NCBI GenBank assembly: GCA_001630475.1
Contig: KV419418.1
Span: 186,001-250,000, forward strand
Direction of reading: 5' to 3'
Length of the DNA stretch: 64,000 nucleotides
From: Sistotremastrum niveocremeum HHB9708
Lineage: Eukaryota; Basidiomycota; Agaricomycetes; Sistotremastrales; Sistotremastraceae
Shown: positions 1 to 56,706 of the stretch, one piece after another
Numbering within the stretch: the stretch's first letter is position 1
How the letters are laid out: the number at the start of each line of letters is the position of its first letter
Notes under the pieces: model-generated
Told to the model about the DNA's origin: nothing
The model's input: only the letters and a program-made list of their open reading frames with translations
Databases searched by the model: none
Position numbers and translations under genes: made by a program

Positions 1-992
1 GTATTCTATTACCGTTCACTCAACTTCACTGAGTTTCGTTCTAATATCGCTTACATAATCAGTGGCCGATTCTCTGGGATGTACTCGGCATACCGTCAGT
101 AATATCAGTCCCGGATTCAAACTGCTAATAGTCACGAATGACAGAGGAACATTCGAAGAAGCTCAAACCCTCCCGCTCTATTTCGATAGACAGGATGTAA
201 AGGAAGCTATTCATGCTCCGACCAATACCTCCTGGAAGGTCTGTGCAGATATCGATGTTTTCCCGCACGGAGACGGCTCGTTGCCACCGGCATTGACGGT
301 CCTTCCGAATGTGATCGAGAAGAACAACCGGACGGTTATTATTCATGGACAAGCTGTATGCCCTCCGTTCTGATATTTGAGTATCGTATAGCCTAATTGA
401 GTCTCGCTGTAGGACTACGTTCTCATTGCTGAAGGGTACGTTTCCGCTTGTTCTCACTGATGTGAGGTTCTCAATACCATCTAGCACACGGATAGTACTC
501 CAAAAGTGAGTGCATCAATTCGGAAGAACGATAATTCGTTGACCCTGGGCTTCTCAGCTTAACTTGTAATGATCTTGTTGTTTACTCGAAGATTTCCTTT
601 TCTTGAACCGACATGTAGGGCACGGCAAACAAGGATTCCAGAATACGCCAAAACTGGACTCCTTTATCGTCGATGGAATGGGTGCAATGGGGACTGTACA
701 ACTTGAAAGAGGTTCTCAATTGATGTCCGGTCGACCGGTTGGCCTTGCTGACGTTCATATTTTTGATAGGATTGACCTACATCGAAGTGGTATTAAGTGG
801 GCACATGTAAGTCGGCGTCAACTCTTGTGATTATCGTATACTCAGACTGGGAGTTAGGGTCCCCCAATTCTCTCCACAGGTACCACTCCCACGTTTGAGT
901 TCTGTGTGCATCTGATTGTGATAATAATTGTCCAGGCGGCTTTTCGGACCATGGAATATCTCCTAGGCTTCAAGGAATATCCTTCGGATTGA
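1..992 (+). CDS. S10 serine carboxypeptidase, 3' part (5' end outside window)
   Basis: C-terminal part of a secreted S10 serine carboxypeptidase, which removes C-terminal residues from peptides. The window opens inside an intron (1-62). Exons by motif and splice-site reading are 63-94, 145-355, 413-435, 485-505, 558-565, 619-711, 770-806, 858-879 and 936-992, and all phases agree. Family landmarks seen are [30 protein letters not shown] (with the catalytic Asp), NLTW, FIVDGMGAMGT, the catalytic His in LSGHMVPQ, and MEYLLGF before the stop. Exon 558-565 is only 8 nt and completes the NxTW motif. The gene looks intact as far as it is visible. It is a diverged paralog of the complete gene at 7350-9844, and has one extra intron (356-412) just before the catalytic Asp codon. 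The serine half lies to the left of the window. Confidence 0.93.
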
Positions 993-1299
993 ATGAACTG
1001 ATGGTTCTGTTTCGCTCCAGTGTGACAGGTCCGGGACTTTGGCCTTCCGTATGTTTGGGCTCGGAGAAGTGGCTATTTTTAGCGATCTCGACTTTGTGTG
1101 AGGACTATACTGTAGAATATTTTCTTCTCAATGCCAAGTGTGATACGGTGATTTTCTTTGTTCAGAGCTGCGGAATCTCTGCAGGTTCCTCGCTGGCACT
1201 AGAAAGTTTTTAACTGTCTAGTTCCAGCGGAGTCATTGTACGAGCAGCAATCGATTTCGTAGGGTCTACACTACGATTGAAATTGACATGACATAACAA

Positions 1300-1705
1300 A
1301 GCTCCTTCAACATTATATTCGAAGGTCTCTAGTAAGGGTTAGGGCTGACACAGAGAATTCATCAGCAACAGGGACATTGTCCGATCAATGCGAGAGATTC
1401 ACCAGCGATATCCAGGGCAGAATGGTGGACCAGGCTGCTCGTGAGGCTCTGGACTCGCAATTGCACTATATCGTAGAGTTATGGCACAAGTCATCACAGT
1501 GCCTTGAGGCGGCATCGAACACCTACGCTGGCTTAGCTGCAACAAAACACTTGTTATTAGAGCATCGTGGAAAAGCGCAAGCGATTGACTGACGATTGGG
1601 AGCTGCTGTCGCCGCTCCGAAATATGCAGATATGACAACGAAGAGGGATAATCTGAACAACATTGCGGAGGCGATTAGCAACAACTGGGTGCTGTGAGAA
1701 AGTAC
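1300..1705 (+). other. Possible remnant of a helical hypothetical protein
   Basis: A mostly open stretch reads as an amphipathic helical protein (RMVDQAAREALDSQLHYIVE near 1420, then KYADMTTKRDNLNNIAEAI near 1635 and a stop near 1697). One in-frame TGA near 1588 interrupts it. The reading frame and helical character suggest a decayed or mis-read gene, but no start or splice sites could be fixed and no family was recognised. Confidence 0.25.
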
Positions 1706-3767
1706 TAAGTAGCCAGAGTCCGCTGGACTATTTGTATACAGTTAAATAGTTAATTCCTCGTGATATTCCGACAACACGAAAAGTACCTATACTCTCATCT
1801 CGCTGCCTATGCCTTATGAAGATTATAAAATGGGATCAATGTATTTCTGCATTTTGTCGAGACAGAGATTTTCCTTGCTGTAGACTTGCAGACCCTCCGC
1901 CGGGTCTTCGATATCATCCAGCTACTGCACAGCACGTATTATGCACATGTTTCCACTGAGTGATCATTCTCCTTTTCATTCTGATCACAGGCTGTCGCCA
2001 GCTTTACTGTCCCGATGAAATCACGTCACAAACGAGAATGAAGTTAATGGACGGTGGCCAGAGACGGAGACCTAGACGATATGGAAGATGTTCATGGCTG
2101 CATTACTCCAGAGGTTGGACCTAGGGAAACGAAACAGCAGTGTTCATATCGCACGGAGTTAACCAATAATCTCCCGAGCCGACTTCTCCGCAGCAGACTG
2201 CCAGTCAAAACGCTCGTTCCAGGCCATTTTAGGCTTATCGTGCTGCTGATTAGAGTCACGAGCGCTGTCTCCCTATAGTGCATATCGGGCAGGGTACTGT
2301 GACTTCCACATACAAAGGAGGTGGCAGAGGGGTGATGTCTCACTGATCCCGCTCCGATGTCGACGTTCTCTTCACGTACCTCCAACGACGAGAAGATTGA
2401 GACATTGTCAGATCGAATCGATGGCCGGCCAATCTCGAAGTAAGCCATTCAAAGACTTGCGGATAAAGTGGAGAGACACCCTCATATTGCGTTATCAGAT
2501 CACGCGAGCCCGAGATTGGTCCATTGACGAATGACGCTTCAACGATCAGACGATTAGGAGTATTAGCCCTGCGTTCATGCTCAGTAGCATTGACGATCAT
2601 CTCGCTTTCGCTCTGCGCGTTGCCTGCAGCACCATTGGTCCCTTTCATCGCGGCGGGCGCAGCAATCCTTGCTGCGACTTCGGAGGCTGCGGATTATTAT
2701 TTATAATCGGCGCCGTAGGAGATAGACGAGAAGGAAGTCACGACGCCACGAAGCTTGCACGAATGAATATATTGTATGATCCAGATTTTCGTCATGAGAA
2801 ATTTTGACTGTATAGCTTCCTGAGCAATAATAGACTGTGAGAAAGTGCATCGAGATAAAGAAATGGGATGACGACAGAATGTCCAAGACCATGAGGTGGT
2901 GTAAATTGGAACGAAGGATGATTGGTGGCCAGTCAAATTCCGAGGGGTCAGCGTAATCGAAGGCACCCGAAGAAAAGCTGCGTTATCCTGGGCGAGTGAG
3001 ACAGACTTCGCTTGTTCCTAGGAGTCGGAGAAGCTCAAGAACGGCTAGCGGAGATTCAAATTGAGCCGCGAGCTCGTCGTTGCGGATCATCGAGGAAGAT
3101 CCCGGAATGTGACTTTTCTTAGCATGCTGTGAGCATTGAGCGTTTCTGGTGGCGGGGGCCGGCGATCAAAAGTTCAATTGGACTATTGACCAATGGTGGG
3201 CCAAATTTTTCCATACATAGTTTTATGGGGTCCGAAGATTTCTAGACATGCCGCATTTATATTTGCCATGGCCTAGCCTTCGCCGAAACTGCGCACAGAA
3301 AGTGTCGGCACCCTCATTTAAAAATCTCGTCAAATACGCACCGAGTGTAAAGGACTCTGGTAGCAGTAGTGCGAGCGCGAAGGATCATTGACTTGGTGCC
3401 TGTAACAGATACTGGGCGGTTTTAGCCTTGGTTTGGCTTCGGGCATCAGCGGGAAACTTGAGTGCAGGTGAAGTTGGAGATCAAACCTAAAGCACTTTAG
3501 ACGTTGAATCAATTCGAGTTGCGACCTACTTGAGTTGGCCGACTGATAAAAACCAATTGCGCCGACAATATCTTGCAAATGCGGTCCTGGGGTTGTTCGG
3601 CGAGCCGGGCGAGGTGATGAAGCAACGTATAGAGTCTTCTCAGACTGCTTAACTTGGGGCTTGAAGAGACTGAGCAGGCATAGGATATGACCGAGAGAGA
3701 TATAGAAAGCTTTGAACATGTATACCCAGTCTTTGAGCTCTGATCAGCAAGCCGGAGAAGGCGATGA
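1706..3767. other. No supported gene
   Basis: This stretch between the partial carboxypeptidase and the Ser/Pro-rich orphan shows only short overlapping open frames on both strands. One of them (2524-2706, +) has an Ala/Leu-rich hydrophobic run but no partner exon. The last part, above 3700, should hold the promoter and leader of the gene starting at 3928. Confidence 0.4.
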
Positions 3768-3927
3768 GTGGTGGCTATGAGAGACCTTGAACCGGTGCCT
3801 GAAGCCGAGCCGAGCGTCGAGGCCTTGACCTCATATACGCAAACGCACCCTCGTCACCAATTTTTTTCCCAACCACCATCCGCTCGCCCACCCTCCTTCC
3901 TCGCCGTCGTCGTCGGCGCTCCCGACG

Positions 3928-6354
3928 ATGATTCCAAATCACGTAGACTATCGTTCACGTCGTCTCTCACAACAACCAGCCCAGTCGACTAACCCCATCC
4001 TGGTACCTCATCTAATTCGCACCGTGCCTTCTCCTGGCCCGTCCTCATCCCCGCAAAGCCCACATCCGGTTCAACCCCATCCTACACAACAGCTATCACA
4101 GCAGCAGCATCCAACTCAGACAGTCCCAACTTCACAGATCCGGAATCAGTACCACACTCCCAATGGCGTTTCTCAGGCAGGATACCAGCGGAACTCGCAG
4201 AACACGAACACTTCATATCCAACACCTGGCATCAGCTCCCATGCCTCACCTACATCAGCACCGTCGCAGAACGACTGGAGGAGACTGAGGTTGCATAATC
4301 TTCCTCCACGTATGAGGTCGAAGTCCGGGGCCATGCGATCGCCGCCCTCGGCGACCCCGACAGGCGCATCCGGCGGCGCAGTGACCGTCTCAGCAGCGTC
4401 TTCGAACAACGGCATTACTCCGTCATACTCGTTCTCGGCGGAGACGTTTGCGGATCAATTTGGTGCTTTATCCCTTGATTCGCCTCATCCCGACGATCAG
4501 GACGCAACGAGCATGAACAGCTGCTCGGCTGTGTCATCTTCGGACCACCAGCATCGCCTTGCACGTTCGCCTACAACATCGACCTCCTCGTCGTTCGTGT
4601 CTGCCAACAGCTTCATTTATCATGCAGCACCGCCTCTCGTGGCCTCGCAGAGCCAAGCGCTCGCACCACCTATGGTGTCAGTAAAGACACCGAATGTTGG
4701 TGGACCAGTTTCGGTAGGCCGCCCGTCGCGGAATCTACCTCCAAGACTCCAGCGAAGTGCTCCAGATCTGCGAAATAGGGCGCAACGTCAAAATCAGGTG
4801 CGTGACAGTCAGGTTCCAGGGCATTCCAGATTGGTTCTGACGATTTTATTTTCTGCGTAGGGTCCTGCTGCGTCATATTCGAATAGTTTAACCCACTCTC
4901 GTTCAATCGGTCATTCGAGCCAGAGCTCGCATAGTCAACATTCGCAGATCCCTCCTTTACCCCCTCTGCCAAATCAAACACCTACTCCTGTACAACAGCA
5001 TCATATTCAACCGTATCCGCATCCACAACACCAGTCGCAATCATCACAACAACCTCCGCCCCCGGGTCAACGACAACATCTTCCGCCTTCTCCTACCTCT
5101 ACCGAGACCGATTCAGGATCGGCTGACTCCCACAGCCTCATCACCCCGCCACCTTCGACGCATACTACACTACAGACCCTTGGCCAAACCATATATCAAT
5201 CCGCACAGCCTCACTCGTCCGCGACGCCAAAGCTCTCACGTAAGGAGAAGCAACAGCAGCAAGTCTTGAGTGCCTGGACATCGGGCGCCAAGTCTATTTC
5301 TTCCACTTATAGTCACGCCAGTTCTGGGTCTGGATCCGGAGTTATAAGCGGTCTTGGAAGAGAAGCTTATTCGTCCTCCAGTCTTTACTCGACGCCGTTC
5401 ATCCCGACTTTCGGTGTAACGCCTAGTGTGGGCTCGGGCGGATCTCTAGCGCTAGGGCAGGGCAATCAAACGCAGTATCTGTACGATCAGGGGTCGGATG
5501 AAAACATCCCGTTCTACAATGGTGGAAGGACGCGGAAGGAATCTCATTCGGGTATGAGTGCCGGTCATGCTGGAGCGGGAGGGCTGGGGAGCGTCGCGGA
5601 GTTTGAGTATGAATACGAGATAGAGAGCGCTGATGATGGTCATGGAGGTGACGACGGTGATGAGGAAGACTTCAGGTCCGCATCCCATCATGGCGGCGCC
5701 GAATACGTCCTGGAACGTGTCCCCGAAGATACAGGTTTCGCTGGTCAAATTCAAGCACAGGAAGGGCACGGCGTACGACAGGGTTTGAAGAGGCGAGGAT
5801 CGTACGTGCCCAACCCTGCCTTCGATCCATTCTCTAGCGTCAACGGAGATTGTTCTGGGGAGAATGAGAGCATGGGAGGCGAGAGCGAAGCCGGACATGA
5901 GGACGAAGACGAATTGGAAGTACTCGATCATGACGTTCATCTGATACTTGGGAACCTGGGAGGTGACGCAGAGTTGGATATACCCCTCGGCGAGTATCAA
6001 TCTCGTTCCGTCTCTCGCAACTTTCCCGCCGCGCGGTCTCGGGATCATAGCCCTCATCCTCAATTGTCTTCCGCGGGCTACCAGCACCAGCCCTGGGGGG
6101 TCGAGGAGGATCATAACGACTTCGATCGAACACTCAATTCGGGCTACGCCATTCACCCTTCGACCACGCCAGTTGCCGCTCTCGTCACTCCCAAGAAGAA
6201 TACTCATGATATACGTGCTCTTCCACCCGGCGCTGGCGCGTCTATTCCTCCTTCCTTGTCGATGTTCAGCTCCAGGCCTGCTATGGTCGGCTTGCCGATG
6301 ACAACGAGTACGGCTTTCACAGCTACCGCCCCCATGCGGTCTCCTTGGAGTTGA
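3928..6354 (+). CDS. Ser/Pro/Gln-rich orphan protein
   Basis: Two exons, 3928-4797 and 4861-6354, joined in phase 0 by a 63-nt GT-AG intron, give 787 residues. The ATG at 3928 follows a pyrimidine-rich leader. The protein is almost entirely low-complexity. Ser/Pro/Gln-rich tracts fill the first half, with a short basic stretch (WRRLRLHNLPPRMRSKS) near residue 115. Ser/Gly-rich sequence follows, and then an acidic segment (DDGHGGDDGDEEDF) in the second half. I see no signal peptide, membrane segment or catalytic motif. The composition fits a disordered regulatory or scaffolding protein, but that is inference and no family was recognised. A second open frame at 3768-3992 overlaps the start; it is probably leader rather than an extra exon. 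Confidence 0.75.
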
Positions 6355-7349: not shown

Positions 7350-9844
7350 TTAATCCGAAGGGTTTTCTCTGAATCCCATCAGGTACTGCATGATCTGGAA
7401 CGCAGCCTGCAAGAATGGATCAGAAGACGGTATCAAAAGAGTAGCAGACGAGCTTGCTCACCTTCGGCGAATATTGTGGAACCCTACCAAGATACGTTGT
7501 CAGCAACGATACCGAATCTCCTCCAGGAGATATGACTTACATATGCCCGCTGAGCACGACTTCGAAGTATGTCAAACCTGCCGCAAGACAATCAGTCTCA
7601 GGAACTTGAAGTATATATGAGTCACGAACCTCGTTCTGTGTGGGTGGTTCCCATCACGCCCATACCATCCACGACAAAGGAATCATCTTCAATCGGCGTT
7701 TGGAAACCTTGCATGCCACCCCCTGAACGACGTTTCAGTAATCAAGGACGCTGATTGAGAATCCGCCACGACTCACAAGTCATACTAGGATCAAAGTTCA
7801 ACAATTAGTTAGTGAGGAGAAGGACACGGGGAGGAATCCAAGTACTTCTGGATGACAATTCGGGTCCTGTAATGACCGATCATTTAGTATTTTGAAACAA
7901 CCCACAAGACATCGACGCACCCTTCGGAGATAAGAATGAAGTCCGCTAATCCGTGAACAATGACCGCTCGTTTACTCTTCTCAATAACGCTGGGTAGGAC
8001 AGTGAACGCGGGCGGCAGAGACCCATCGCGATGAGGGAAGACGTTGATGTTAGAGCATTCCGTCCACGAAACTTCCTGCGGAGCATGAATAGCTTGCTTC
8101 ACATCAGTACGATCGAAGTATAACGGGAGTGTTTGAGCCTGCTCGAAAGATCCCCTACATCGAACAATTTAATAGTGTCACCACACCGATGACGTGGCAC
8201 CTACGGGAAACCGAGCACGTCCCACAATATTGGGAACTAGAGGTAGATGTTCAGCGCCCACGAAACATGGGGAAAGATCATAGGAACGTACCGTATCGAA
8301 TATACGGTAGATGTTGAAAGCAGGGTTGATGAGAACGGCAGCATCGAATATCGCATCCCAGACATCACACCCTCGTGCAGTTCGGCCACCAGGAAGGCCA
8401 TTCGGATATGGGAATATACCGGATGGCGGGAACGTAACGAACTTGTCTACATATCCGGTATAATTGCAGGCGGCTGCTTGAGCATCGAGCTGCGCCATAA
8501 ACGAGGAGCTGCGGAAAAGTTCGGTAAGCGGCATGCGATTGTGGATCGGAGCTCTCACTTGAATGCGAAGACATTCTCGTACTTATGAACCTGTAATCAA
8601 AATGAGAAAGTAGCAGATATCGCACCCGCGAGGACTTACAAAATCCACTGCAGGGATCTGTTCCTGAACGACATCAAACGACAAAGAAGCTGCGAAGATG
8701 AGTCATTTTCGATTATCATGTCGCCGGATCAAGACTCACGATCGCTGATCCAGAAGCCTTGCAGATCCAAATCAAGCATTGTTGGATTCTCATAGATAAA
8801 GTTTGCAATATAAGGAACATAAGTTCCAGCATACTGGCGCAAGTTCAGTCGGCAATCTCGTTCAAGAGCAGAAATGTGCCTTACACTTTCACCGCTAAGC
8901 CAGAACTTCTTTCCCTTCAGTTCTTCGAAAATGTTCAAGAACTGTGTAAAGAATCCGACGAGTTGAGATGCGACATCGTTTTCGTTCTGATGACGTGGTC
9001 AGAAAATTTCCGATGACTAAGCAAATAGGCGCGCTACCAAAGCTGTTGGCGTGCCGAGTGAGAATCCAGTTCCCACGGGTTGTTCGACGTATAGCAGACT
9101 GGACAAGTTGGTCCAGCTGAATTGGTTCTGAATGGGTTTCGCCGTGCCAGTGCTCCAGCTGAAAGGCTGCGGAAGTTTTATCAACACGGACATGGATCAA
9201 GCTGCGAAGTGTACTAACTCCATTCTCTTGCAAGAGTCCCTCGAGTGAAGAACTATATTGTGAAAGTAAATCGATGTTCCCAGATCCTGCAGTTTGGGGC
9301 TCACCAGCCGGGGCCTCCGTTGGTCCTTAAACAGAGTCAGACTTCTTGTCCGAATACCAAAAAATGGGGATATACCAGAAGAGCAAGTCGTCGAGGCTAC
9401 CTTGGGGTCCCGGAGGGAAGAACCAAAAGAAAAGCTGCAAGGGGACGTGATCAGGATTACATTCTAAGGCTTGAACATAAAGCTGACCTGTCGAGTTTCA
9501 TGACTCGAGTTACTAATTGGAATTAATCCAGCCCAGCTCGGTCCAATGTCGAAATCAACCTCAGGAATGGTTGTTCCGTCCACATAAAATTCTTAGAGCA
9601 AACGTGTGAGTAAAACAGAGCGTTGGTTGTCATCATACTCACGAGAAGCCCGGGGATTTGAAAATGTGATGTTTTGAACACCGGTGGATGCAGCTGACTG
9701 CGCTCTTCCCATGACAGCGGCTCGCACGGATTCCATGTGTGCAACCCGAGCAGCGTGCTGTTTCGCATGAATAACGTTGGGATCCCGGAAAGCTAGTGTG
9801 CTCCCGCAGACTCCAAGCGCAAGGAACAGAGCAGAGACTCTCAT
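7350..9844 (-). CDS. Secreted S10 serine carboxypeptidase, complete
   Basis: Complete S10 carboxypeptidase of 515 residues in 19 exons, starting at the ATG at 9844 with a clear signal peptide ([18 protein letters not shown]). Exons in gene order (high to low): 9844-9643, 9591-9488, 9434-9376, 9325-9305, 9252-9219, 9166-9038, 8986-8885, 8833-8740, 8689-8640, 8590-8559, 8508-8292, 8236-8205, 8154-7921, 7866-7846, 7784-7777, 7722-7630, 7577-7541, 7483-7462, 7406-7350. Every phase agrees. Motifs: FWTNGGPGCSSLEG (oxyanion region), [11 protein letters not shown], the catalytic Ser in GES|YAG (split by an intron), [12 protein letters not shown] (catalytic Asp) and LSGHMVPQ (catalytic His). Exon 7784-7777 is 8 nt, at the same place as in the paralog at 1-992. 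All three catalytic residues are present, so the enzyme should be active and secreted. Confidence 0.95.
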
Positions 9845-9893
9845 TTTTGAGGCGACTGAGAGACAGCAGGGGAGCGCGCCGGCCCCATCCTTG

Positions 9894-9900
9894 CTTTATA
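9894..9900 (-). promoter_or_regulatory. TATA box of the S10 carboxypeptidase
   Basis: TATAAAG on the minus strand, about 50 nt up from the ATG at 9844. Confidence 0.55.
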
Positions 9901-12389: not shown

Positions 12390-12663
12390 CGCACTTACAT
12401 AGCCCTCAACCAGCTGAAGGCTCGGCCTTGTCAATGTATTTGTATCTGGAATTGGGTGTACTACGGCGGTGCAATGTATACATAAAGCTGCAGACTCTGC
12501 TACACATATTGTTTCTGTCAATGTTCGATCCTCGGATACATCACCCTGCTCTCTTCATTTCATCATCTGGTATACACAATGAACAAAAACGTCAATGGAC
12601 ACAAGACCGGAGCCAAGTGGAAAGACGCGCTTCGGATATTTCGGACATTCGGACCGTTCCGAA

Positions 12664-13869
12664 TCAGAGCTTGCCCTCCGCAAATGCCTCTTTTAGGTAA
12701 TCTTCCATAGTCTTCCACTTCCAAAGCGACTGTCCAGGATTCACCAATTCTCTCTCATTATGACCCGAATAATCCATCCATCCTTTGCCCATCGCGTACC
12801 TATATTATACCTTGTCACGAATGGCAGCAAGAATATCCTCGGAGGGAGCGTACCGGAAATACATGACCCATCCTTTTTCTTTCAACATCCTCTCTCTGAA
12901 CTCAGCTAGATCAAGAATCTCGACCTTGATCTTTTTCCCGGTGATATTCTCAGCGAGTTGAGCGACTTCTTGATAACTGACCACAGAGCCTGCAATCCGC
13001 ACGTCATTTGGGACGGTTGCTGACGAAGAAGAGTCCAAGGAGAGCTGTACGATACGAGCGGTAGATCGAGCGATATCTTTCACTGAGACGTATGTTACGG
13101 GAGTGTTTGGGGACCCGACAGCCGTATAAGTCAAATTCGCGTGATCGAAGCCGACTATTATAGAATGTTGAGTCCCGCGCGTGCATCCTCAGCGTGGAAG
13201 ACTTACGAACAGACTGCGTTGCCATAAGTGTCGCGTCGAAGATAACGATTAGAGTACACGCACCCCATATATACCACCTGGTGAACTGTCCTCCATGAAA
13301 TGGCCGACATTGATAGCTACGACTTTCATAAACCCGTTCCCCGCCACACGAGCCGCTCGGAGATGTGCTTCTTTGGAAGCAAAGACGGCAGACTCAAAAT
13401 CGAAATTAATTCTCTCTCTGTTGAAACAAAATTAGCATATCAAAGAGAGTGTCGGAAGGTCACGCACGCTCCAAATTCACTCGGAATGTATAGCTTAACC
13501 CTATTCTTCACCAAGGCTTTCAATACCATCTCCTTCGCGACCTGATCCTTTGCTGATCCTAGGACACTGACAAGAGCATCAACTCCTTCGAGGGCTTGAT
13601 TGACGCTATCTTCGTTCTCGAGGTCACATTGAACGATTTGGACGTTTGGACTACGAGCTTGGAAATATTGCGCTTTATACGACGAGGCGTCCCGAGTGAG
13701 TATCCGAACTGAGGGAAATAGTTGGCTGTAGGACTCCTCTGTAACTACTTCTGCGAATGCGCCCCCTGAAACCGAGCCAAGTCAACTGGTGTCGGAGTAC
13801 TGTGTTTCACGTTAGGATACCTAGTTGACCAGTGGCACCTATTATCGCCAGAACATGCGTTGTTGACAT
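12664..13869 (-). CDS. NmrA-like NAD(P)-binding protein with a premature stop
   Basis: NmrA/isoflavone-reductase-like Rossmann protein. Exons (high to low) are 13869-13821, 13765-13468, 13417-13264, a 7-nt exon 13213-13207, and 13154 downward. The N-terminus carries the nucleotide-binding motif VLAIIGATGQLG. RILTRD, LYIPSEFGA and VTYVSVKDIARST follow as in the family. In frame, TAA at 12807-12805 ends the protein at about 285 residues. Reading continues open for 46 more codons to TGA at 12664, and that tail (YAMGKGWMDYS, ELVNPGQSLWKWKT) looks like the usual C-terminus. The gene is therefore either truncated or spliced around the TAA by a 57-nt GT-AG intron that would also remove family-like sequence. 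Without the 7-nt exon, a single 120-nt intron (13274-13155) is the alternative. Confidence 0.8.
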
Positions 13870-18922: not shown

Positions 18923-19925
18923 TCAGTCTAGCCCGACCCATTGGACGTCTTTGACTGCTTTACAAGCCTGATAAACAGCGTCTATCAGATATGATCGAAC
19001 CCCAGAGTACACGGTGCTCACTGCTTTGTGTCTTGACCAATCATTTTTTTGACATACAGCCCTGAAATGGCTGAGAATCAACGGGGATGTCAGATGTTTC
19101 GAAAACCCACCCGCAATATCTGTCGTTATATCATGTTTTATTAGCCCGAGAATACTCATGTTAGGTGGAAAGCCTTGCCTAGTCAGTTTGCAACCGCTGC
19201 ATCTCAGGATTCCAGCATCCGGAGATGCCGTCGCGTCTTTTTCACACATGGCGCAACTTCCGGCCAGGGGGAATTGGACACCAGGGGGTTTAGGAGCGAA
19301 CATGGGCGGCTGATAGGGCACACCGGACACGGTACTCATCATCCTACGCTGCACTTGGATGGCTTCATAGCAAGATCTTTTATCCAAATCGCACACGGTG
19401 AAGATCTACGATTAGGAGTCCGTTCAGTGTTCAAGGAAGAGAAGCGGCATGAAAACTTACGTATAAGTTGACCTTAGGTTGGGGTAAATGGATCCAAGAA
19501 GCCACGTTACAATCCGATTCTGAAGTGTATGATCAGTGAATCTCGGGTCCAAACCAGTGATATTCAAGACCTCTGGATGGATCACCTGGTGACGTCCATG
19601 TTGCTTTCAGCTTCCAAACGACATGGCACGAGACTTCACTTTGCTCACCGCAAACGCTGCATTTCCAAGCCTCGCTATGCTTCACGTCTTTTCCGCGAGC
19701 AAACAGAAACCCCTGCACCCATCCTTCGAATGCCCCGAAAGCCTCAGGATTCCGATAAGCTTCCGGAATCTTTGGCTTCATCGTCACTTCGACGCGACTT
19801 TCGTTGCTAAATAAAATAGCGCGAGCGCGACGGCAGGTCAGTACATTTTCGTAAAACTGAAACCAAAGCTCAACCCACTGTCCATATAGGATGATCGTGA
19901 CATCGAGATGACTGGCTTGGGTCAT
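18923..19925 (-). CDS. MYND-type zinc-finger protein
   Basis: A 239-residue protein ending in a canonical MYND finger, a protein-protein interaction zinc domain. Exons (high to low) are 19925-19586, 19519-19461, 19405-19179, 19119-19111, 19061-19022 and 18967-18923, with all phases consistent. The finger reads CAMC ... RCSGCKLTR | YCG | AVCQKNDWSRHKA | AC, matching Cx2C...Cx2C...YCx3C...Hx3C. The conserved Tyr-Cys is encoded entirely by the 9-nt exon 19119-19111 (ATATTGCGG). Without that exon the finger loses a zinc ligand. The intron before it (19178-19120) begins with GC (AG|GCAAGG), a non-canonical but well-known donor. A second Cys pair (CSVCGEQ) lies in the first exon. The start at 19925 is the only in-frame ATG near the 5' end and is less certain than the finger. 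Confidence 0.85.
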
Positions 19926-21866: not shown

Positions 21867-21879
21867 ATCGCGTTTGAAA

Positions 21880-31937: not shown

Positions 31938-32992
31938 ATGATCACCCCTTTCTTCGCTCTTGTCTACGCCGCTGTGGTTTCCGCCGCCGGTTCCGCCCTG
32001 ACAGCTATCAGCGTCAATGGTGGACCATGGGATACCACCTCCACCAGACCATCTCCAGCAGGCGGACCGCCGGTTCTGAACGTCCTCGCAGTAAGTCAAT
32101 GCCTTCTTGATCGGCCATCCCGATCACTGACCTCGGCGTGCGCGTGCTCTTCTTCTAGCCCGAAATAGTGAATATTTCCCTCTCCCACCGTCCCGCATCT
32201 TCGTTCCTGACTCAACGCAGATCTGCGGATATAACGGAACTATCCCCGTCAAGGGCGTTACGACCGTCGTTGGCGGCAAGTCGAACGTGACTGTCCTCTG
32301 GTCTCCTGACAGCCACATCGGACCCAATCTTATTTATGTTGCCCCCGTTCCTAGTCCATATATCACCCCCGTCACAGGCTTGAAGTGGACCAAGGTCAGA
32401 TAACCTACATTTTCGGCGAATATGCTTCTAATCATCTTCGGCATAGATTTCTCAGCAAGGCATCAGCATTCCTGGAGGCGGAGGCACCGGATGGTCCTCC
32501 CCCCTCCCTGGCGGTCAATATCATTTCATAATTCCTCCCACTCTCGCCCCTGGGCCTTACCTTCTCCGCGCCGAATCGCTCGTACTTCCTAACGGTGGAA
32601 ATTTCAAGACGGCTGAATCATTCGTCGGATGTATTCAGATCAACGTTACACTTACGCCTCCTGGACCACCTCCCTCCATTGCTGTGCCTTTCCCGGGTGC
32701 TTATAGTCCCGGAGATCCCGGTCTTGTGAGTCTCTCGTTTATTCTTCTCAGACACGAGTTGACATTGAACGTTAAATAGACTTGGGTACGCTGGTTTCTT
32801 CGACTACTGACCATGTTCTCAGCCGCTCATGGTTTCAATTCACAGAATCTTGCAGCGCCCCCGCCGCCACCGTATCCTTTCCCAGGTGGACCGGTATGGC
32901 CGAGCGGTAAGAGCTTTCTCGCATTAGTGTGATCCTTCCTGACTGTTGATTTAGGTGCTACCACTAACGACAACGATGTCGGAGACATTTAA
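31938..32992 (+). CDS. AA9-like secreted protein lacking the histidine brace
   Basis: Exons 31938-32090, 32159-32167 (9 nt), 32221-32394, 32447-32725, 32780-32785 (6 nt), 32846-32906 and 32955-32992 give 239 residues. A signal peptide (MITPFFALVYAAVVSA) is followed by AGSALTAISVNGG. It aligns throughout with the AA9 at 40269: exons 1 and 4 are equal in length and the 9-nt exon has the same phase. At the position of the mature N-terminal His of AA9 it has Gly (GSALTAIS versus HVRMTAIS), and the axial Tyr is Phe (AESFVGC versus AQFYSSC). The second brace His is kept (SHIGPNLIY). With two of three copper ligands lost, it should not be a normal monooxygenase. AA9 relatives without the His brace are known from basidiomycetes. 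A binding or structural role is possible. The C-terminus (NDNDVGDI) resembles that of its paralog. Confidence 0.88.
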
Positions 32993-40208: not shown

Positions 40209-40268
40209 GAGGCTCGAATCAGGCTTCATAATTTCAAGGCATAGTACTAGTGTGTCAAGATATCCTCG

Positions 40269-41239
40269 ATGGCTCGTTCCATCGCTCTTGGAGCTCTCCT
40301 GCTCGCCGCCTCATGCTTGGCTCATGTTCGGATGACGGCCATTAGCGTCAACGGCGGGGCCTTCGAGACCGATTCCGTCCGCTTGCCACCCAGTAACTCT
40401 CCCGTCACCGACGTTACTTCTGTATGTTGAATACCTTTCCTCCCTTTCGTCCTACTTACTCACCCTGTTTCAGGATGACATTGTAAAATTTTGAAAATTC
40501 GCCTGTATGATTGAGACTCGATCTTTGCTCAGATTTGCAATGTGAACGGCAACATCGCTGCTCCTGGTACTACGACCGTCCCTGCGGGCGCAACTGTCGT
40601 TGCTCAATGGGATGCTGGTGCTCATCCTGGTCCCAACATCATCTACCTCGCCCCAGTCGACGATGTCACCACCACGACCATTACCGGTCTAACCTGGACG
40701 AAGGTATTTCACCCCCTGTACTCCCGATCCTCATATACTGATATCAGCTCAATCAGATCTCTCAACAAGGAATCATCAACGCAGCTGAAGCTTCCAACGG
40801 CTGGTCATCCCCTCTTCCCAACGGTCAATATCATTTCACGATCCCTTCAACCGTTCCAAGCGGTCTCTACCTGCTCCGCGTCGAGACTATCGGTCTTCAC
40901 GTCGCATCTACCTATCCTGGAGCACAATTCTACAGCAGCTGTGTTCAGATTGAAGTCACGAATGGTGGATCTGGCTCCCTCAGTGGTGTCGCATTCCCCG
41001 GCGCTTACAAAGGATCCGATCCCGGCATTACTATCGTACGTTTCTCTTCCTCTTCCGCCGACGTCCTGGCATACCTCCGCGTCAGAATATCTATTACCCT
41101 GTTCCTACGACATACACGTTCCCTGGTGGGCCGGTATGGCAAGACGGTGAGTATTTTCTTGCGGATATAGTTCTACGTGTCGTCTCATGAAGTTCTCAAA
41201 GGATCTACCGAAAATGATAACGACGCCGGCGATCTTTGA
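40269..41239 (+). CDS. AA9 lytic polysaccharide monooxygenase
   Basis: Secreted copper enzyme of family AA9 (oxidative cleavage of cellulose or related glucans), 236 residues, with no CBM1. Exons are 40269-40421, 40474-40482 (9 nt), 40533-40703, 40757-41035, 41086-41146 and 41202-41239, with all phases consistent. Signal peptide cleavage after MARSIALGALLLAASCLA leaves His as residue 1 (HVRMTAISVNGG), the first brace ligand. The second brace His is in AHPGPNIIYLAP. The axial Tyr is in AQFYSSCVQI. Other family landmarks are NSPVTDVTSDDIICNVNG, LYLLRVETIGLH, GAYKGSDPGITI and NIYYPVPTTYTFPG. The 9-nt exon supplies the DDI of the TSDDI motif. A polyadenylation-like AATAAATAAA follows at 41278-41287. 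The charged C-terminal tail (STENDNDAGDL) is unusual and is shared with the brace-less paralog at 31938. Confidence 0.93.
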
Positions 41240-48037: not shown

Positions 48038-48044
48038 TATAAAA
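48038..48044 (+). promoter_or_regulatory. TATA box of zipper-like gene 1
   Basis: TATAAAA about 60 nt up from the ATG at 48101. Confidence 0.5.
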
Positions 48045-48100
48045 ACTACAACGATCTAGCCTATCTCACTAACATCCCCCATTTTGAAAGTCGTCTCATC

Positions 48101-49134
48101 ATGAACAGAAATACCGGATTTCCGTCGTATCCGAACAATATGGCCAGTTCCTCATCAAGTCCACCGTTCCGTGAATCCGCAAATTCTTCAGACCAGAACT
48201 CTACTCGTAGTACGCGACAACCGCCGACAAACTTCGAAATCGCTGAAATATTTTCTCATGCAGGATATCTTCCTACTCAGCACCATTCATCGCGAACGGC
48301 CAGCTACGAAGGTTATTCATCAAATATGGCCTCTCAGACCTCGTCCGATACCCAAGGTGAATCTAAGAGCCTTTCGAAGAAAATAGCCGATCTAATTGAG
48401 ATTCAATAGGCTTTCGTTCATCCAGCACTGTAATTAATCCTCACGATTATGCATCTCCGATCCCACGCAGGAGAGCTGCCCCTCTTTCAGCCTCGGTGGA
48501 TCTGCCGCTCTCAGTCCCAGATTTTGAGACTTCACACTACGACTATAGTGAGTTTAGTCTAAGAAGTGACACTTGTAAAAACTGACATCTACCCGAGATT
48601 TTGCTTCAATCTCCGGCTCGCGGTTTGACCATTACGAGGAAGAGACGAATGCTACTCCACAGTCTACTACCGGGACCAGCGAAGAAACCAAGATGTCCCG
48701 TGACGCAAAGCGAGAAAACGAGCGCCGAGCGCAGAAGAAGATGAGCGATGCAGGGAAGACTATCGTCGCTTGGGTCAAGGAAAACGAACCCGACGTCGGA
48801 AAGGTCGGCATTGCCGATGCGATAGCAATCGAACTACAGAGAGACAGGTTAGCGCGCTTTTCTGTCGATCTCACCCAGAAATTAATGCATATTTCAGGCG
48901 CTTAAGGTTAGATTTGACACATTTCAGCGATCATAACCTTGGACTTAATCCCATTTTAGTCAAGAAGTTTCCAATCTGCTCGCAGAGCTGCGTAGCTTGC
49001 AAGCGAAAAATAACCACCTCCAGATGACCAACGACCACTTGCTGAAAATGCTGTGGGATCACGCTACTGCCACTCAAGACGCGGCTTTGCAAAACAAGCT
49101 GCAACATTTTGTGTCGAAGCAGCACGGAGACTAG
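48101..49134 (+). CDS. Basic helix-loop-helix/zipper-like protein, family member 1
   Basis: Exons 48101-48356, 48410-48547, 48598-48847, 48898-48906 (9 nt) and 48960-49134 give 275 residues with consistent phases. A Ser/Asn-rich N-terminal half precedes a basic segment (DAKRENERRAQKKMSDAGK), a first helix (TIVAWVKENEP), a short Gly loop (DVGKVGI) and a second helix (ADAIAIELQR). The second helix runs straight into a coiled coil with spaced Leu (VSNLLAELRSLQAKNNHLQM). This order is that of bHLH-zipper transcription factors. The canonical E-box-reading His is not at its place, so DNA binding is an inference. The 9-nt exon (RLS) lies exactly between helix 2 and the coil, at the same phase as in members 2 and 3. 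A TATA box lies about 60 nt upstream. Confidence 0.8.
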
Positions 49135-50603
49135 ACCATGGATAATGATATCTTAGATCACGAGATTCTCCACCGGTTGTAGAGACTGCGTTTGTATCCC
49201 GGATTTTCCTTATCCATAGAGTTTTGTGGACTGTTTATTATGCCTTAGCTTATCATTAGTAGTGGGTTGTAGCAGCGTTGAGCGTCTGACGATTGGGTCA
49301 CGGAGGATTTAATATTGTAAAATACCGAAATGAGACATCGTGTCTTCTATTTTCACGTCATTTCCATTTCCATAACCGACATTCAATGCAGAACCTTCGA
49401 TTCAACACTTCATAGAGGTTAGACCATCTCAATTTCTAATGAATGTGCCTTTCGCAAAGATTGTCGACAGAGATTTTCAAATCGAGACCGGCATATATGC
49501 GCTGTGTGTGTAGGGAACAGGATCTGGAAGTGGCGGATTATCCCCAAATTATTATTTTGACCTCACATGAACACGAGTATTTTATTACCTAACGAGGGGA
49601 CTTGGGTCATCACTCCCTGAAACAAGATTAATCACTCGAAAATCCCGACCGATGTTTAGTACGTAGAAATGAGCTATGGAGGTTCTTCTAATTCCTGCCC
49701 TGAAAATCATAGGAAAACAATATTGAGGAGGGACCTCCACTCTTGAGGTTGAGCGGTCTTCTCAGGGAGCCCATCGTAAGTTTGTGAGGACATTGCCAAG
49801 TTCAGCATAGTTGGGGAAGATCACTGAGGATACATGGTTTATCTCATGCGACAGACGCTTACCCACAAAATCCCAAAGCAAATGATTTGAGTAGTTCCAG
49901 ATTGTGCTACTTTGTACCCTTCTTCTTGAACCGATTTTTGTAAGTAAAGCCTGCGGGATGATTTTCTGGTACCCGACTCGGAGATTTTTCGATGAAAAGC
50001 TACCTAAAATTTTGAGGCATCATGCTATCGTAATTCTAGTATTCTTCGAGATTTTTTGCCGTCGTTCGTGTGAGATAAGCGTCGTTCTTCTTCACTGCGT
50101 TTGATCGGAATAAAAAATTAGGGTTCGACCACACAGGCAGAGGTTCCAGTGTCTATGAAGAATTTTCACGCGAAGTACTATATCTCATGAATTCTTGCAG
50201 TATTCACTGAGACATACACCAATGAGGCTGCTAAATGTGATTCCTGGTGCTCTAGAGAGCACTTCTACGATAGATCTAGAAATGCCAGTAGCTTTGATAC
50301 TGGACTGCAGGTGCCACTCGGCGAGGAGCGCCACTTTGATCATTACTCCTTGAACCGTGGAAGCTCGCCAAGCTGCCACTGCTCGATCGACCGAAGATTG
50401 AGAGACTTTCCTCATTAACCCCTCGGGAAGCACATTCTCCCGCGGAAAAGAGGGCCTGAGAATGTGGCGGTTATCGAAATGGCGGCTTGAATGAGCACTC
50501 TACTATTAATGAGCGCTGCTACCAGTGGCTTCGGATACGGTCAGGGCAGCGGACTTGGGCGTCTCTCTTTGCTGGAAGTCTGTGAAATGCTTTTCACGAA
50601 CCC
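49135..50603. other. Intergenic between members 1 and 2
   Basis: No supported gene in 1.5 kb; short frames only. Promoter of member 2 at the right end. Confidence 0.4.
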
Positions 50604-50611
50604 TATATATA
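50604..50611 (+). promoter_or_regulatory. TATA box of zipper-like gene 2
   Basis: TATATATA, about 45 nt up from the ATG at 50654. Confidence 0.5.
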
Positions 50612-50653
50612 CGCCCATAAGAATGGTCCTACCATCTGGTTAGAATTCGTTCT

Positions 50654-51738
50654 ATGTCGTTTACGCAGTCCAATCAGCGCAACATTCCCCCTTTCATGAC
50701 CTCCTCGTCTGCGATGGACTGGTCACACTTCAGGAATGCTGAACAGCCTGAAAACGAACCTCATGCTCCACTCGCTTTGCCTGCAGTCGTCCACCATCAT
50801 GATGATAACACCAACTGGCCTGCATCGTTCAATACCGGGACATCATCGGGTGAGGACGGACATGCATACTTCGCGTGACAATGCTAAAGACATGCTTTGA
50901 AGACGCTACGGCCTTTCGAATGGATGGCATCAGCCCAGCCAGCTTCCCTCATCCCGCTCAATCAACGTGGGACCCGTATTCTGGTACACAGTCCTGAGTA
51001 TCAACGATGTAGACATACTCATTCTCATAATTTGGACAGAGAATGTACAGATTCCTGCACAGCGCTTCAACGCGATGAGTAGGAACGGCTCGAACGCAAG
51101 TTACAGAGGCTTCCGCCCCGATAATAACGACACACACGAGTTCATCGCGGTCACCGACAATATAGGCGGTGGTCAGACTCAACATTATGCTCAGCCGAAC
51201 ATGCAAAGGAGCTCTGGCGTTCAAGCTGAGGAGTCCGAGGCCTCGAGTGTTTCGGAGATGCCTTCCGGGGACAGCTCCCATCGCCGAGCTGAGCTCAAGG
51301 CACGACGGAAGCTAACAGAAGCCAAAGCAAGGCTTCATGCACGCGTCCAGGAACGGTCGGGGAGGCGCCTTCATGGGCATGCGGAGAACATCAATTATCT
51401 TGTGACTGCCGCCAAGTGAGTACATCTCTCATGCGAAAAAGCGTTGTTCTCATCGTGGACAGGCAAGATAGGTAGATTCTAAGTTTTGAGTATGGCGAAC
51501 GAAGAAACTGACAGGCTTTTTCAGCGAGCAGATGCAGCTACTGCGTCGAGAGAACGCGACGCTGAAGAACGACATCATAGAACTTCGCCGCAAGTACGAC
51601 ACACTTAAACAGCAGGTTGTGCCCAGTGTGCGCAAGAATCGAAGCGATATGCCAAGGCAACCGAATTCAGTAGGTCTACCCCGAGAGCACGAATGGCAGG
51701 CCACAGAAAGTCAGACCGCGTCGAGGATGGCTCGTTGA
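50654..51738 (+). CDS. Basic helix-loop-helix/zipper-like protein, family member 2
   Basis: Exons 50654-50849, 50939-50983, 51040-51415, 51463-51471 (9 nt) and 51525-51738 give 279 residues with consistent phases. The N-terminal part is rich in Ser, His, Asn and Pro. The core is basic (SHRRAELKARRKLTEAKARL), then a Gly/Arg loop and a second helix (GHAENINYLVTAAK). The 9-nt exon (GCAAGATAG, giving QDS) comes next, followed by a strong coiled coil (EQMQLLRRENATLKNDIIEL). The core is the most diverged of the four members; the exon phase pattern and the coil tie it to the family. A nuclear regulatory role is inferred only. Confidence 0.78.
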
Positions 51739-54057
51739 TCCTAGGATACACGAGGATACATGAGGCAACGAGAGATGGACATATCTAGACAATCAGGACA
51801 ATCAGTATGCAGTTCTTCGTATGAGACAGTCGAGTACATTTTCTTAGTTCCGGAAACCCCTTGTAAACTTAGCACCGCCTACGCTCCGGAAGCGCCTTCG
51901 GATTCCGGATATACCGAAGCGGATCTTGGTTACCTTAGCAACCACGATCCATCAAACTTCAAAGTGATCTACGAAAGTGGCTGATCGCCCACATCATCGA
52001 TAGTCGTCATTGTTTGCACGAGAATTGCGTGTGTGAAGAGAATCATAAAATGGAGGGATGTGTTCCCCGATGAACGCAAATGGGATTGTAGTGCCAGTTC
52101 TGTTGTGAAGCCTCGAGTTTCCAGAGTTTCCGGTTTGTGTGGGGTGAAAAGTAAGAAGGGGACTGAAGAGGAACGATCGACTCTAGGTGCGTATCGGAAT
52201 GCGCAAGTCATGCAGACTCCAGATCCATGACGTGCAGAAGCAGACGCGACCTTGGCTTCATGTTGAGTCATTGCACAATGGCCTGGAGGCTGAAAGGCGA
52301 ATCAAAGATCTGTTGGCAGGATTACGCCTCGAACCTCAATCGACGACTCCTATCAGGTCCTGAGTGACTGGGAGTCAGAAATGAAAGGAAGAGTCGAGGG
52401 AAATGATTACATTACATAAGCGAGTCTTAGGTAATAAAGCTATGCGACACCGCTTTCACTAGAAAATTCACTGCCTTCCAGTTCGGCAGGCTGAGCAACA
52501 TTCCGAAGGCGATACATGGCGGGAACAAGGATCTGTACATGCCCTGACTCGATTGCAGATGACAGCGTTTGGGGTGCTGTACACCTTCATGTGTACCTTG
52601 AGCAAGTCGAGTGACTCGAGTCGAATGACCAGAACATGGATCCAGTTACAATAATGTAGATCGTGGTAGGGGTGTGATAGCGGGGCACATCAACTGCATG
52701 CTACATGTGCGATCCACGGGAGGTGCGTGCGAGAGAAATGAAACAACAGTGGCTGCACTGAAGCGACACAAGCAGCGTATGATAGCGTCGCAGCGAAAGA
52801 TAGGAGAAACGGAGAAACTTTCTTCGACAGGAGATTTTATTCAGCCGTTAAACATGAAGCTTGGCTCAGACTTACCACGATCACGGTCTGCGTTTGGATA
52901 GAAGGCTATGTTTGAGCTTGAACAGCGGATGTTGGAGTCTTCTCATGAGCTGATGAAGTGATTTGGAAGTCTTAATGCCTTGTGGGAGAAAGGCAAAATA
53001 AGCAACGAGGAATCATGCCCTCAATTGAGTCTGAAGGATTCCTGACGAATGCCATGCCTGGCCCCGAGATTTGGAACTCGATATCTCGAAGAGTGAACGA
53101 TTGGGATTTCAGGATGCTGGCGGTTGTCGCATTTCACCCCATCGCGTCTTTTCCCGCTCCATGCCTCCGGGTCGATGCATGTAACTCGTGCCGTACCATT
53201 CTCAGGGAGCGCATCAACCGCAAGAGCGGGTTAGGCGCAAGAGAGTAGCGCCAACTTTAGTAGAGCTGAGTTTAGCAGTTGGGGAGGCTCGATTTCAATC
53301 TCCGACAAGCGTCCCACTGGCGTCACTTTCCCAGCTAGGCAGAGATTATGATACGCCCGGGGCTAATGGTATACATGCTTCTGGTATTAGAGGTTCATTA
53401 TGTTCTTCCCTCCCAGTATCAGGTTGTGGATCCTGAGCCAGTCAACAAGTTTTTTGACGATATCTGTAAGAAGTGACTCCATACGAAATCGAAATGAGGG
53501 CTTTAAAAATTCATTTCAGCCCCTCAGTAAAGGAAAACTCCATTCAACTACGGCAATGCGGCTGATGCCAGCGATACATTGCAGAGCTTGACCTTTGCTC
53601 CTCATTGCATTACGAAGCGGATGATCCTGCAACAATCGTTACTGGAAGCTGCCTTTCTGCCTCGTGTTGGATGGGAGGCCAATTGTGAAATCCATAACAG
53701 CATGAGATTGAGCGATTGAGTCTCTTGAGCCTGAACCCCAGTGTTGAGGCGCATTGATCATGCTCCATACTGTGAGTCTCGTTCGGAACTTGCAAATAGA
53801 TTTCTTACCTTGTATTTATGCCAGCTTTCTTGTCTCGGACTATAAACTTCTTGTTCGCCAGTCATTCTGTTTTGGAAGAGTGTGCCCATCATCCCCTTCC
53901 TACTTCCTTCCATTAGCTCTCGAGCACGTCCTGCGATCAGCACAACTCAGCTCTGCTACCCGTCAATGCCTGCTTTCCGTTCCTCGAGCCGACTTTCGAC
54001 TGGTGGGACGCTTTGCATCATGTCCCTGTCTTCGCTTGAACGTTTGATATAGCTCCC
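51739..54057. other. Possible decayed fifth family member; otherwise empty
   Basis: Between members 2 and 3 lie open pieces that could be relics. They are 51760-51984 (MRQREMDISRQSGQSVCSSS...), an Arg/Lys/Leu-rich coil-like end near 52230-52364 (LEAERRIKDLLAGLRLEP then stop), a basic piece near 52720-52900 (LKRHKQRMIASQRKIGETEK) and a Leu-rich end near 52904-52960 (MFELEQRMLESSHELMK then stop). No consistent gene model joins them. The 52980-54050 part shows nothing supported. Confidence 0.3.
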
Positions 54058-54707
54058 ATGCACCGTTCTCCCAATCAGATGGATGCGTTTGGAAACCGCG
54101 GCACTTCTACTTCTGAAACTTCGAGGACTCGTATGTTTTTTCGTCTGATTGGGGGTCCCGCAGCTGATCATATGCAGGATCTCCTCCGAGACCGTACCCA
54201 CAAGAACGTCAAAATATAGAGCTCAAGGTTCATCGACGTGAAATTGAGCGAAAATCCCAACACAAACGAAGCGAGACTGGTAAAAGACTAATTGAGTGGG
54301 TCAAGAAAAATATGCCGGGTCATGGCGCTGTAGGAGCGGCTGACGCCGGCGAGATTGTGCTCAACACAGTCGAGTGCGTTCATGATTTTCTTTCGAGCTG
54401 GACGCGTTGAAACTAAACATCTTGGCAGACAATATCGGTGAGAACAACTATAATCTTGATAGCGACCTCTTCTGATTCCGACCTCAGACGCGAGTTAAGG
54501 GAGCTGCAAGAATACTGCAAACACCTTGAGTCCATCAAACATCAAACACGACAACCATCATCTGCCCCGAGATCTCATCTGGCCTTTCCCCAGCCGACTG
54601 CATGGCAACATCCAACGAGCTTTGCTAACCCGACAGATTGTAACTTCCCATCAACGAATATTAACCACATGTTCCAATCTCCTTACTCTGGGTACGATCT
54701 CTCTTAA
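54058..54707 (+). CDS. Basic helix-loop-helix/zipper-like protein, family member 3
   Basis: Exons 54058-54130, 54178-54373, 54429-54437 (9 nt) and 54488-54707 give 165 residues with consistent phases. It is the shortest member, with little N-terminal extension. The basic part is ELKVHRREIERKSQHKR. Helix 1 is KRLIEWVKKNMP, the loop is GHGAVGA, and helix 2 is ADAGEIVLNTVE. The 9-nt exon (ACAATATCG, giving QYR) leads into the coil RELRELQEYCKHLES. The E-R/K-R/K-S/A-Q-K/H-K core of the basic region is shared with members 1 and 4. A Pro/Ser/Asn-rich tail follows. Probably a DNA-binding regulator by layout; no named family was recognised. Confidence 0.82.
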
Positions 54708-55806
54708 TGTGCACTACATCCACAATTGTGCTGGTCGCAATATTCATATCACCGAGTAGAATCTGTGTACATAATATCCGCAGGCGTCTATTGCTAAATT
54801 TTCCCTTTCGAATGACTCGTATGTGAATGAATGTTCGCTTTTACACCCCTGATAGCTGCGTTGATTCTAGTCGATCTACAGCTACTGCTTGGCTGAGCAT
54901 GTATAGTAACTGTTGATGAGGTCAGCCTTTAACTTATGTCTGTTAGCACTCTCGAGGGAGGTACCGGTGCTGCAGCGCCATGACGTGCTGATATAAAATA
55001 TACATGTTTGTGTAAAATGTGCATAAATAATGCGACATGAATACCACTAATCAGTCGAACCTCGATGATATCGCCACCAACTTTTGCTCCGGTACTTGTA
55101 TAGCTTGTATATATTAGTGTATTAGGCAATATTAGCCATGCATGGTTTCATGGTTTCATCGCCGACCTCGACCGACGACGAACGCCGTTGGCTAGAGTCA
55201 TGGAGAGGATATTACAGGATAACACATGTTCATTGCTTTCGAAATCAGTACACTCATTTCTCACCGGGACCCCTTCTGACCAATTTGAGGGCTGAGATCG
55301 GAGATCTGAGACCTGTAGGACGTGTCGGTCTTTGTTAGGGTTGAAGCTCCGAGAGCTCGAGGCTGGCCATGGCCATGAAAAGAGACCGAATATGTTATTA
55401 CTAAAGCGAGATCCGCGATTTCCGATGGTGCCATGCATGATGCTGGCAGCACTTGTGTCAGACCTGGTGTCAGACTGATTTCATTTCCGAAAACCAATTC
55501 CGAGAAGCGCTCCGCGGATCCGGTCTAAGGCACAAATTGCCAGATCTGGGAGACTTCGATCAGTGATGTGAGCATCCTACTCCATCGTAGTATACGCTCA
55601 TATAATTTCCCTATCAATTCCCGCATTGCTAAGCCGTGTCTTGGCTCAGGAGCGCTTCGTATAGATTCAGGACAACGCTGTATGCCGATATGAACTCATG
55701 AAGTGAAAACCTAGGCGCCCCGTCGAGCATCTCATGACTATCCTAGGTGCACGGCCCTTCTTTCAGGTATTTCTGAGACCATATCACCGCACCTAGTTGA
55801 ATCACG
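54708..55806. other. Intergenic between members 3 and 4
   Basis: No supported gene in 1.1 kb. Confidence 0.4.
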
Positions 55807-56706
55807 ATGCATCGATTCTGCCATCATGAAGATATCGAAGGTCTCTTCGTTTTAGCTTATAATGTGGAGGGAGCGGGGGAGAAAGGATATCTTGGATCAA
55901 CATCGCCCGTGCGGATCAGTCCCTCAATCTTCAAAATGGGAAGCTTCATCAAAAGCATCGATTCCTCATGCTCCTGGCCAATACCTGTAGAGCAGGTTCT
56001 GGGGCAGGATTTTGAATTGGCGGCTGCTAATCAGATGCAGGCGCACTTTCCACCCCATAATATCATCAGTGAAACGGACCATAGCGGCACCAATGGCCCG
56101 CTACAACTCTCGCCGCCGGTGAGATCCTCGAGGTACACCACTGGTAAGATTCTCCTTGCGAAAACTGCTACGTTCACACTCTGAGAATTACCCGACTACC
56201 AGATATCGCATCTGATCAATGGAACTTCTTCAAATTCTCTAATGGCCTCGACGAGCTTCCAGAAAATCCAGTTCAAATGGTTGAGCCATTAGGTACGCCT
56301 ACCAGAGCCCATTGTTTCCCTCCTATTCTGAGCAACATTTCAGTAACTAATAGCTCTTCTTGCTTTGAAGTGCATCCTGATACACAGGCCAGAGTTGGGA
56401 AATGGCACCGTCGGGATATCGAGAAGAAATCACAAAAGAAACTCCAGGAGGCCCATTCAATGATCCGAGAGCTATTCAAGAGCTTGTATCCTAACATGGG
56501 TCACGTCGGAACCGCGGAGGCAATCTTCACCTTGCTGGATGCCTTTCGGTAAGGGATCTCACTCCGCCTATTATCTTATAAAATCTTCAGCTGGGTCCAG
56601 ATCCTTGCAGTCCATAAACAATGATCTTTCCGAGAAATTGACGCAGGAATCGAAACGAACACACATTCTTATGGAGGCGCTGGTGCAACGACGCGACCTT
56701 GCCTAA
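55807..56706 (+). CDS. Basic helix-loop-helix/zipper-like protein, family member 4
   Basis: Exons 55807-56143, 56203-56548 and 56601-56706 give 262 residues with consistent phases. The start is uncertain: ATG at 55807 or 55936 are both in frame. The core reads GKWHRRDIEKKSQKKLQEAH (basic), SMIRELFKSLYP (helix 1), NMGHVGT (loop) and AEAIFTLLDAFR (helix 2). The coil SLQSINNDLSEKLTQESKR follows. The three residues that a 9-nt exon supplies in members 1-3 are here (SLQ) at the start of the last exon, with no second intron. This member has therefore lost, or never gained, the intron after the micro-exon. A further in-frame intron may exist at 56292-56343. Confidence 0.75.

Follow-up and report, generated by a model that had tools for sequence, protein, structure and literature searches.

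Candidate micro-exons of 6 to 9 nucleotides in nine genes of the basidiomycete Sistotremastrum niveocremeum

Genes and predicted micro-exons in the window

The window analyzed here is a stretch of 64,000 nucleotides (nt) from Sistotremastrum niveocremeum HHB9708 (C25:186001-250000, contig KV419418.1), taken from a 34.7-Mb genome in 111 contigs. The short introns, the AA9 genes and the 69 MYND matches of this genome would fit a mushroom-forming basidiomycete. Ten internal coding exons of 6-9 nt are predicted in nine of its genes: two S10 carboxypeptidases (A and B), one NmrA-like gene (C), one MYND gene (D), two AA9 genes (E and F) and three related putative transcription factors (G, H1 and H2). 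Gene E holds two of the ten, labelled E1 and E2 (Table 1). An earlier note on this DNA had counted eight genes, which is wrong, but its ten coordinates, lengths and flanks were all correct when the letters were read at each site: on the strand read, every piece has AG before it and GT after it (10/10). Its flanking intron lengths of 47-68 nt likewise stand, and skipping the small exon would leave a single intron of 109-130 nt. Gene models built around each site splice all ten into open frames, as had been claimed, with the frame argument bearing only on the exons of 8, 8 and 7 nt, as seven of the ten lengths are divisible by three. Paralogy of the host genes reduces the ten micro-exons to about six distinct ones. 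Their density within 57 kb, to which the earlier note had drawn attention, is partly explained by nearby paralogs (the S10 pair, the AA9 pair and the factor-gene cluster), and micro-exons occur elsewhere in the genome too.

Table 1. Predicted micro-exons and associated features. Positions are those of the window unless a locus is named; slashes mark exon boundaries.
Feature	Positions	Strand	Gene	Flanking introns	Remarks
8-nt exon CTTAACTT	558-565	+	A, S10 carboxypeptidase	52 + 53 nt	AA/C TTA ACT T/GG = N-L-T-W
8-nt exon TATGACTT	7777-7784	-	B, S10 paralog	61 + 54 nt	N-M-T-W
7-nt exon TCTGTTC	13207-13213	-	C, NmrA-like	50 + 52 nt	
9-nt exon ATATTGCGG	19111-19119	-	D, MYND finger		R/YCG/A, supplies motif cysteine
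9-nt exon CCCGAAATA	32159-32167	+	E, AA9 family	68 + 53 nt	E1; PEI
6-nt exon ACTTGG	32780-32785	+	E, AA9 family	54 + 60 nt	E2; TW
9-nt exon GATGACATT	40474-40482	+	F, AA9 family	52 + 50 nt	DDI; VTDVTS/DDI/ICN
9-nt exon GCGCTTAAG	48898-48906	+	G, putative transcription factor	50 + 53 nt	
9-nt exon GCAAGATAG	51463-51471	+	H1, relative of G	47 + 53 nt	
9-nt exon ACAATATCG	54429-54437	+	H2, paralog of G	55 + 50 nt	
Single 52-nt intron	56549-56600	+	H3, fourth factor gene		Matching place; downstream exon unsplit
Candidate 6-nt exon GTCTTC	L024:1859-1864 (G000:C12)	+	L024, AA9		Counterpart of E2
Candidate 3-nt exon CCG	L098:365-367 (G000:C26)	+	L098, ATP synthase alpha		Restores NVQ-A-EEM

Each site was compared with homologs by splice alignment in a total of 16 site-query runs, with 200 shuffles per run and the aligner limited to introns of 40-250 nt. 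The claimed exon was called in 10/16 runs. The queries 6rs6, 8b7p and KEX1 are independent.

Genes A and B both match Pfam Peptidase_S10, and the 8-nt exon of B corresponds to that of A in position and phase. Over the compared stretch the two genes have six introns in common that match in place and phase, among them the pair around the 8-nt exon; A has one extra. Inclusion of the exon gives B a Pfam S10 score of 70.0 bits, versus 27.4 for the product that lacks it and is truncated at its first stop, and gives A 41.7 bits, versus 32.1 for the frame-shifted product cut short. The KEX1 structure (1ac5) aligns with B across the exon with no gap. Real scores were reached by 0/200 shuffles both for A with query B and for B with query A. 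These genes also contain small exons of 21-23 nt (at 413-505 and 858-879 in A, and at 7462-7483 and 7846-7866 in B); the 21- and 22-nt exons are common to both genes, and the 23-nt exon (413-435) is found in A only. A survey of 14 other S10 loci against two rough references, confined to runs scoring >250, returned three short internal exons (4, 4 and 7 nt) next to introns of 42-208 nt in L005, L015 and L017, and other introns of 81-122 nt in L007, L014 and L018. The references fit these genes badly, and the survey is counted neither for nor against the micro-exons.

Gene C, which we take to be NmrA-like, has the same 7-nt exon, in phase and position, as all other aligned genes of this kind (5/5: C, L078, L080, L082 and L083). 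L074 and L083 are one gene and enter this count once, and a weak sixth match on contig C95 lies outside it. With query L078, 3/200 shuffles reached the real score for C. A 115-residue piece of C gave no Pfam match.

For gene D, the zf-MYND score is 43.2 bits with the 9-nt exon versus 22.7 without it. The closest paralog, L093, carries the same 9-nt exon, and as a query it gave a score for D that 0/200 shuffles reached. The upstream intron of D (19120-19178, minus strand) begins with a GC donor, and L093 has GT at that place.

The AA9 exon of F is placed by a solved AA9 structure (PDB 6rs6), in which DDIICN stands in line where the 9-nt exon supplies DDI; 0/200 shuffles reached the real score with this query. 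Residues matching DDI are coded within one exon in the AA9 genes L037, L040 and L041, and a third AA9 gene, L024, shares the AA9 9-nt exon. Pfam scores are 182.4 bits for F with its exon and 166.8 without, and 102.4 bits for E with both exons and 90.3 with both left out. For E1, 0/200 shuffles reached the real score with query F and 4/200 with 6rs6. The TW residues of E2 are unsplit in F; a gapless alignment of E and F at this place requires the 6-nt exon, and the spacing from FPGAY to FPGG is equal in the two genes only if that exon is read. Other AA9 genes appear to have different small exons at other protein positions, of 8 nt in L026 and L031 and of 10 nt in L038 and L039. Both E (31938-32992) and L024 seemingly lack the N-terminal copper-binding histidine, which F keeps after its signal peptide. 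Perhaps E is not an active lytic polysaccharide monooxygenase.

Genes G, H1 and H2, which we take to encode transcription factors, gave no Pfam match over the cut-off. A candidate 9-nt exon in one phase occurs in all three and again in a further paralog, on contig C52, the last case spotted by eye. Because a like exon in the same phase is found in the C52 paralog, the three sites are plausible; their support consists of intron length and this one further paralog, and they are marked lower than the others. Competing AG...GT candidates number five in the H1 gap and only one in the H2 gap.

The earlier note held that every exon restores a family motif or aligns with a paralog. Homologs bear this out at seven of the ten sites; at the three factor sites, which alignment never called, the exons are plausible. 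Comparison with homologs supports genuine micro-exons with normal introns at the seven: five are good, C is backed mainly through its paralogs, and E2 is weaker.

Intron lengths and the splice signals

The introns measured number 170 and come from 29 aligned genes or parts of genes, with regions cropped to the well-aligned part; 34 lie beside micro-exons, 12 beside terminal exons <15 nt (set aside) and 124 serve as controls. Nearly all control introns (122/124) span 46-72 nt, and aligned internal exons range from 6 to 642 nt. The median is 53 nt both beside the ten micro-exons and in the controls (p 0.75). A branch-like YTNAY motif occurs in 17/20 flanking introns and 98/122 control introns, and the splice sites of the neighboring introns are ordinary with the exception of the GC donor in gene D.

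The two control introns >72 nt, of 100 nt in AA9 gene L024 and of 122 nt in ATP synthase alpha, each contain a micro-exon candidate located by eye (Table 1). Shifting the donor of the L024 intron six bases upstream divides it into 52 + 6 + 48 nt, with the 6-nt piece matching E2. The ATP synthase alpha intron divides into 70 + 3 + 49 nt, and the 3-nt piece restores an alanine, a residue that the four mitochondrial chains shown, all from solved structures, also have. The proposal that an apparent intron longer than about 95 nt hides an exon gains some support from these two, the only such introns among the 124 controls, but this count excludes longer introns from poorly aligned ends of genes. 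As no internal exon ≤10 nt was called by the aligner among the 34 of five housekeeping genes, micro-exons are not everywhere.

The flanking dinucleotides were compared with shuffled gaps at the ten sites (2000 shuffles each). Any AG-(3-15 nt)-GT was present in 20-67% of them, and AG...GT of the exact exon length in 1.7-11.5%. Being so common in shuffled gaps, AG...GT alone is weak evidence. Similarity of the gap sequences between paralogs gave z scores of -0.6 to 3.1 for 10 pairs outside NmrA, the NmrA pairs being left out because a 7-N spacer inflates their score.

Alternative readings of the small pieces

On the sequence evidence we consider it probable, at about 0.85, that all ten pieces are coding micro-exons internal to their genes, and their inclusion is most likely constitutive. 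A number of points weigh against this reading. The micro-exons are predicted from genomic DNA and homolog comparison. The claimed exon was missed in 6/16 runs, namely A with KEX1 and all five at the factor sites (0/5 called; two runs for G, one for H1 and two for H2). It was called in B with KEX1, where the result is weak, 16/200 shuffles reaching the score. The margin for E2 is modest (10/200 with query F and 31/200 with 8b7p). Each of the queries A, B, L078 and L093 itself includes an inferred micro-exon, and the runs with them provide paralog agreement, not independent proof. At A and B the aligner found a small exon of some kind in as many as 49/200 shuffled gaps, and its donor preference shaped the control introns as well. 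With respect to intron length, three of the 12 introns set aside beside terminal exons measure 84, 218 and 247 nt (the other nine, 49-60 nt); apparent long introns at badly aligned ends fall outside the controls (120 and 236 nt in L027, 207 nt in L038 and 163 nt in L039), as do the long introns of the other S10 genes.

The 9-nt and 6-nt pieces might not be exons at all, each lying within a single intron of 109-130 nt and the corresponding two or three residues being absent from the protein. The frame survives skipping at 7/10 sites, the aligner prefers one 112-nt intron for G in both runs, and its other splices for H1 and H2 also omit the exon. However, introns of this size would stand apart from the controls, whose only two long members hold candidates of their own. 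Leaving the exon out also lowers the score by 20.5 bits for D and by 15.6 for F. PDB relatives of F have the residues concerned in line, and AA9 paralogs such as L037, L040 and L041 code them inside one exon. We regard this explanation as improbable.

Slightly less probable again is that the pieces are regulated cassette exons serving an isoform switch, as in Trichoderma Xlr2. The same seven lengths divisible by three would leave the skipped product in frame, but in A, B and C a skipped exon would shift the frame and in D and F it would cost residues of the family motif, so that most skipped products would be poor. Signs of regulation were sought in the splice sites only. Least of all do we credit nested introns (stwintrons), in which an inner intron interrupts the outer donor and the small piece is intronic: two introns do stand back to back, but the letters expected for the [D1,2] type, the one compared here (a G directly ahead of the first GT and a T at the start of the small piece), fit only C (1/10) and fail at the other 9/10 sites, the frame is lost in C under that reading, which was rejected, and the residues are present in homologs of B, C and F.

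Proposed splicing of the micro-exons and known systems

If the ten pieces are constitutive micro-exons, each would mark a spot in an older exon at which two introns ended up only 6-9 nt from one another. Every neighboring intron is an ordinary short intron, complete in itself: it has a donor, an acceptor and, in most cases, a branch-like motif. The pair would be removed in two separate splicing events, each recognizing a short intron as a unit (intron definition). Such a mode agrees with the nearly uniform intron lengths and the widely varying exons seen here. Splicing complexes probably cannot be seated at both ends of an exon of 6-9 nt simultaneously, so the introns would be removed one after the other. 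The order may be stepwise, perhaps with the upstream intron first, as the downstream donors look weaker. Special machinery would not be needed, two short-intron events being sufficient. Splicing in Cryptococcus is most efficient for introns of 40-60 nt (PMC11913375), and for most SRRM4-dependent micro-exons of human cells the downstream intron is lost first, with steric hindrance proposed (PMC10250204).

Downstream donors at the ten sites are weaker than control donors (p 0.02), and over 23 micro-exons they fall below the upstream donors in strength (paired p 0.012) as well as below controls (p 0.030), in comparisons weakened by related genes, several tests and an aligner favoring good donors. 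The weaker downstream donors hint at upstream-first removal. A broader picture would join these elements: micro-exons down to single codons fixed and old genome-wide, ATP synthase alpha included; nearly all apparent introns longer than about 95 nt hiding one; and stepwise splicing, upstream intron first, without special enhancers. We hold this picture only tentatively, giving it somewhat less than an even chance.

Exons that automatic gene models are likely to lose sit here inside motifs that matter, and paralogs keeping one micro-exon bear on how exons <10 nt get spliced at all. Of the new points the most useful are the proposed intron-length rule and the possible 3-nt exon of ATP synthase alpha. 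The genes measured keep intron length so uniform that a seeming length of ≥100 nt may by itself point to a hidden exon, and the rule could be tried in other short-intron fungi. No earlier report on these genes turned up in a literature search that covered subscription journals little.

Micro-exons of this size have been published before. In the P450 genes of Phanerochaete chrysosporium the shortest exon measures 6 bp, almost one gene in three has micro-exons of 2-10 residues, and introns of 45-55 bp are frequent (PMC1184071). This white-rot basidiomycete resembles the present case in its exons down to 6 bp and its small introns; it differs in that a P450 family is concerned and alternative splicing is suggested by the authors, whereas constitutive inclusion seems likelier in the present genes. 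For Phlebia radiata, very short exons, down to two nucleotides, are termed typical of predicted genes (PMC6540522), a statement on whole-genome gene models, whereas the homolog tests belong to the present analysis.

In Fusarium CYP621A, an intron of double length and a conserved motif that was out of phase pointed to a one-nucleotide exon, which RNA reads then supported (PMC12940212). The route from an over-long intron and a conserved motif is the same as ours, although the fungus is an ascomycete, the exon is 1 nt long and RNA evidence is at hand. The micro-exon of the Trichoderma virens Xlr2 switch (PMC11121469) is likewise from a filamentous fungus, but its glucose-dependent inclusion is a feature of Xlr2. 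Across ten plant species, 2,398 small micro-exons were found from RNA sequencing, those of ≤15 nt being conserved, often misannotated and tied to protein motifs (PMC8831610). Conservation and the link to protein motifs are shared with the present set; the organisms and the discovery from RNA sequencing are not. Judging by these fungal and plant papers, automatic gene models would likely drop such exons. Micro-exons of this size are already on record for Phanerochaete, Phlebia and Fusarium (1 nt), and the present set is a well-supported addition to them.

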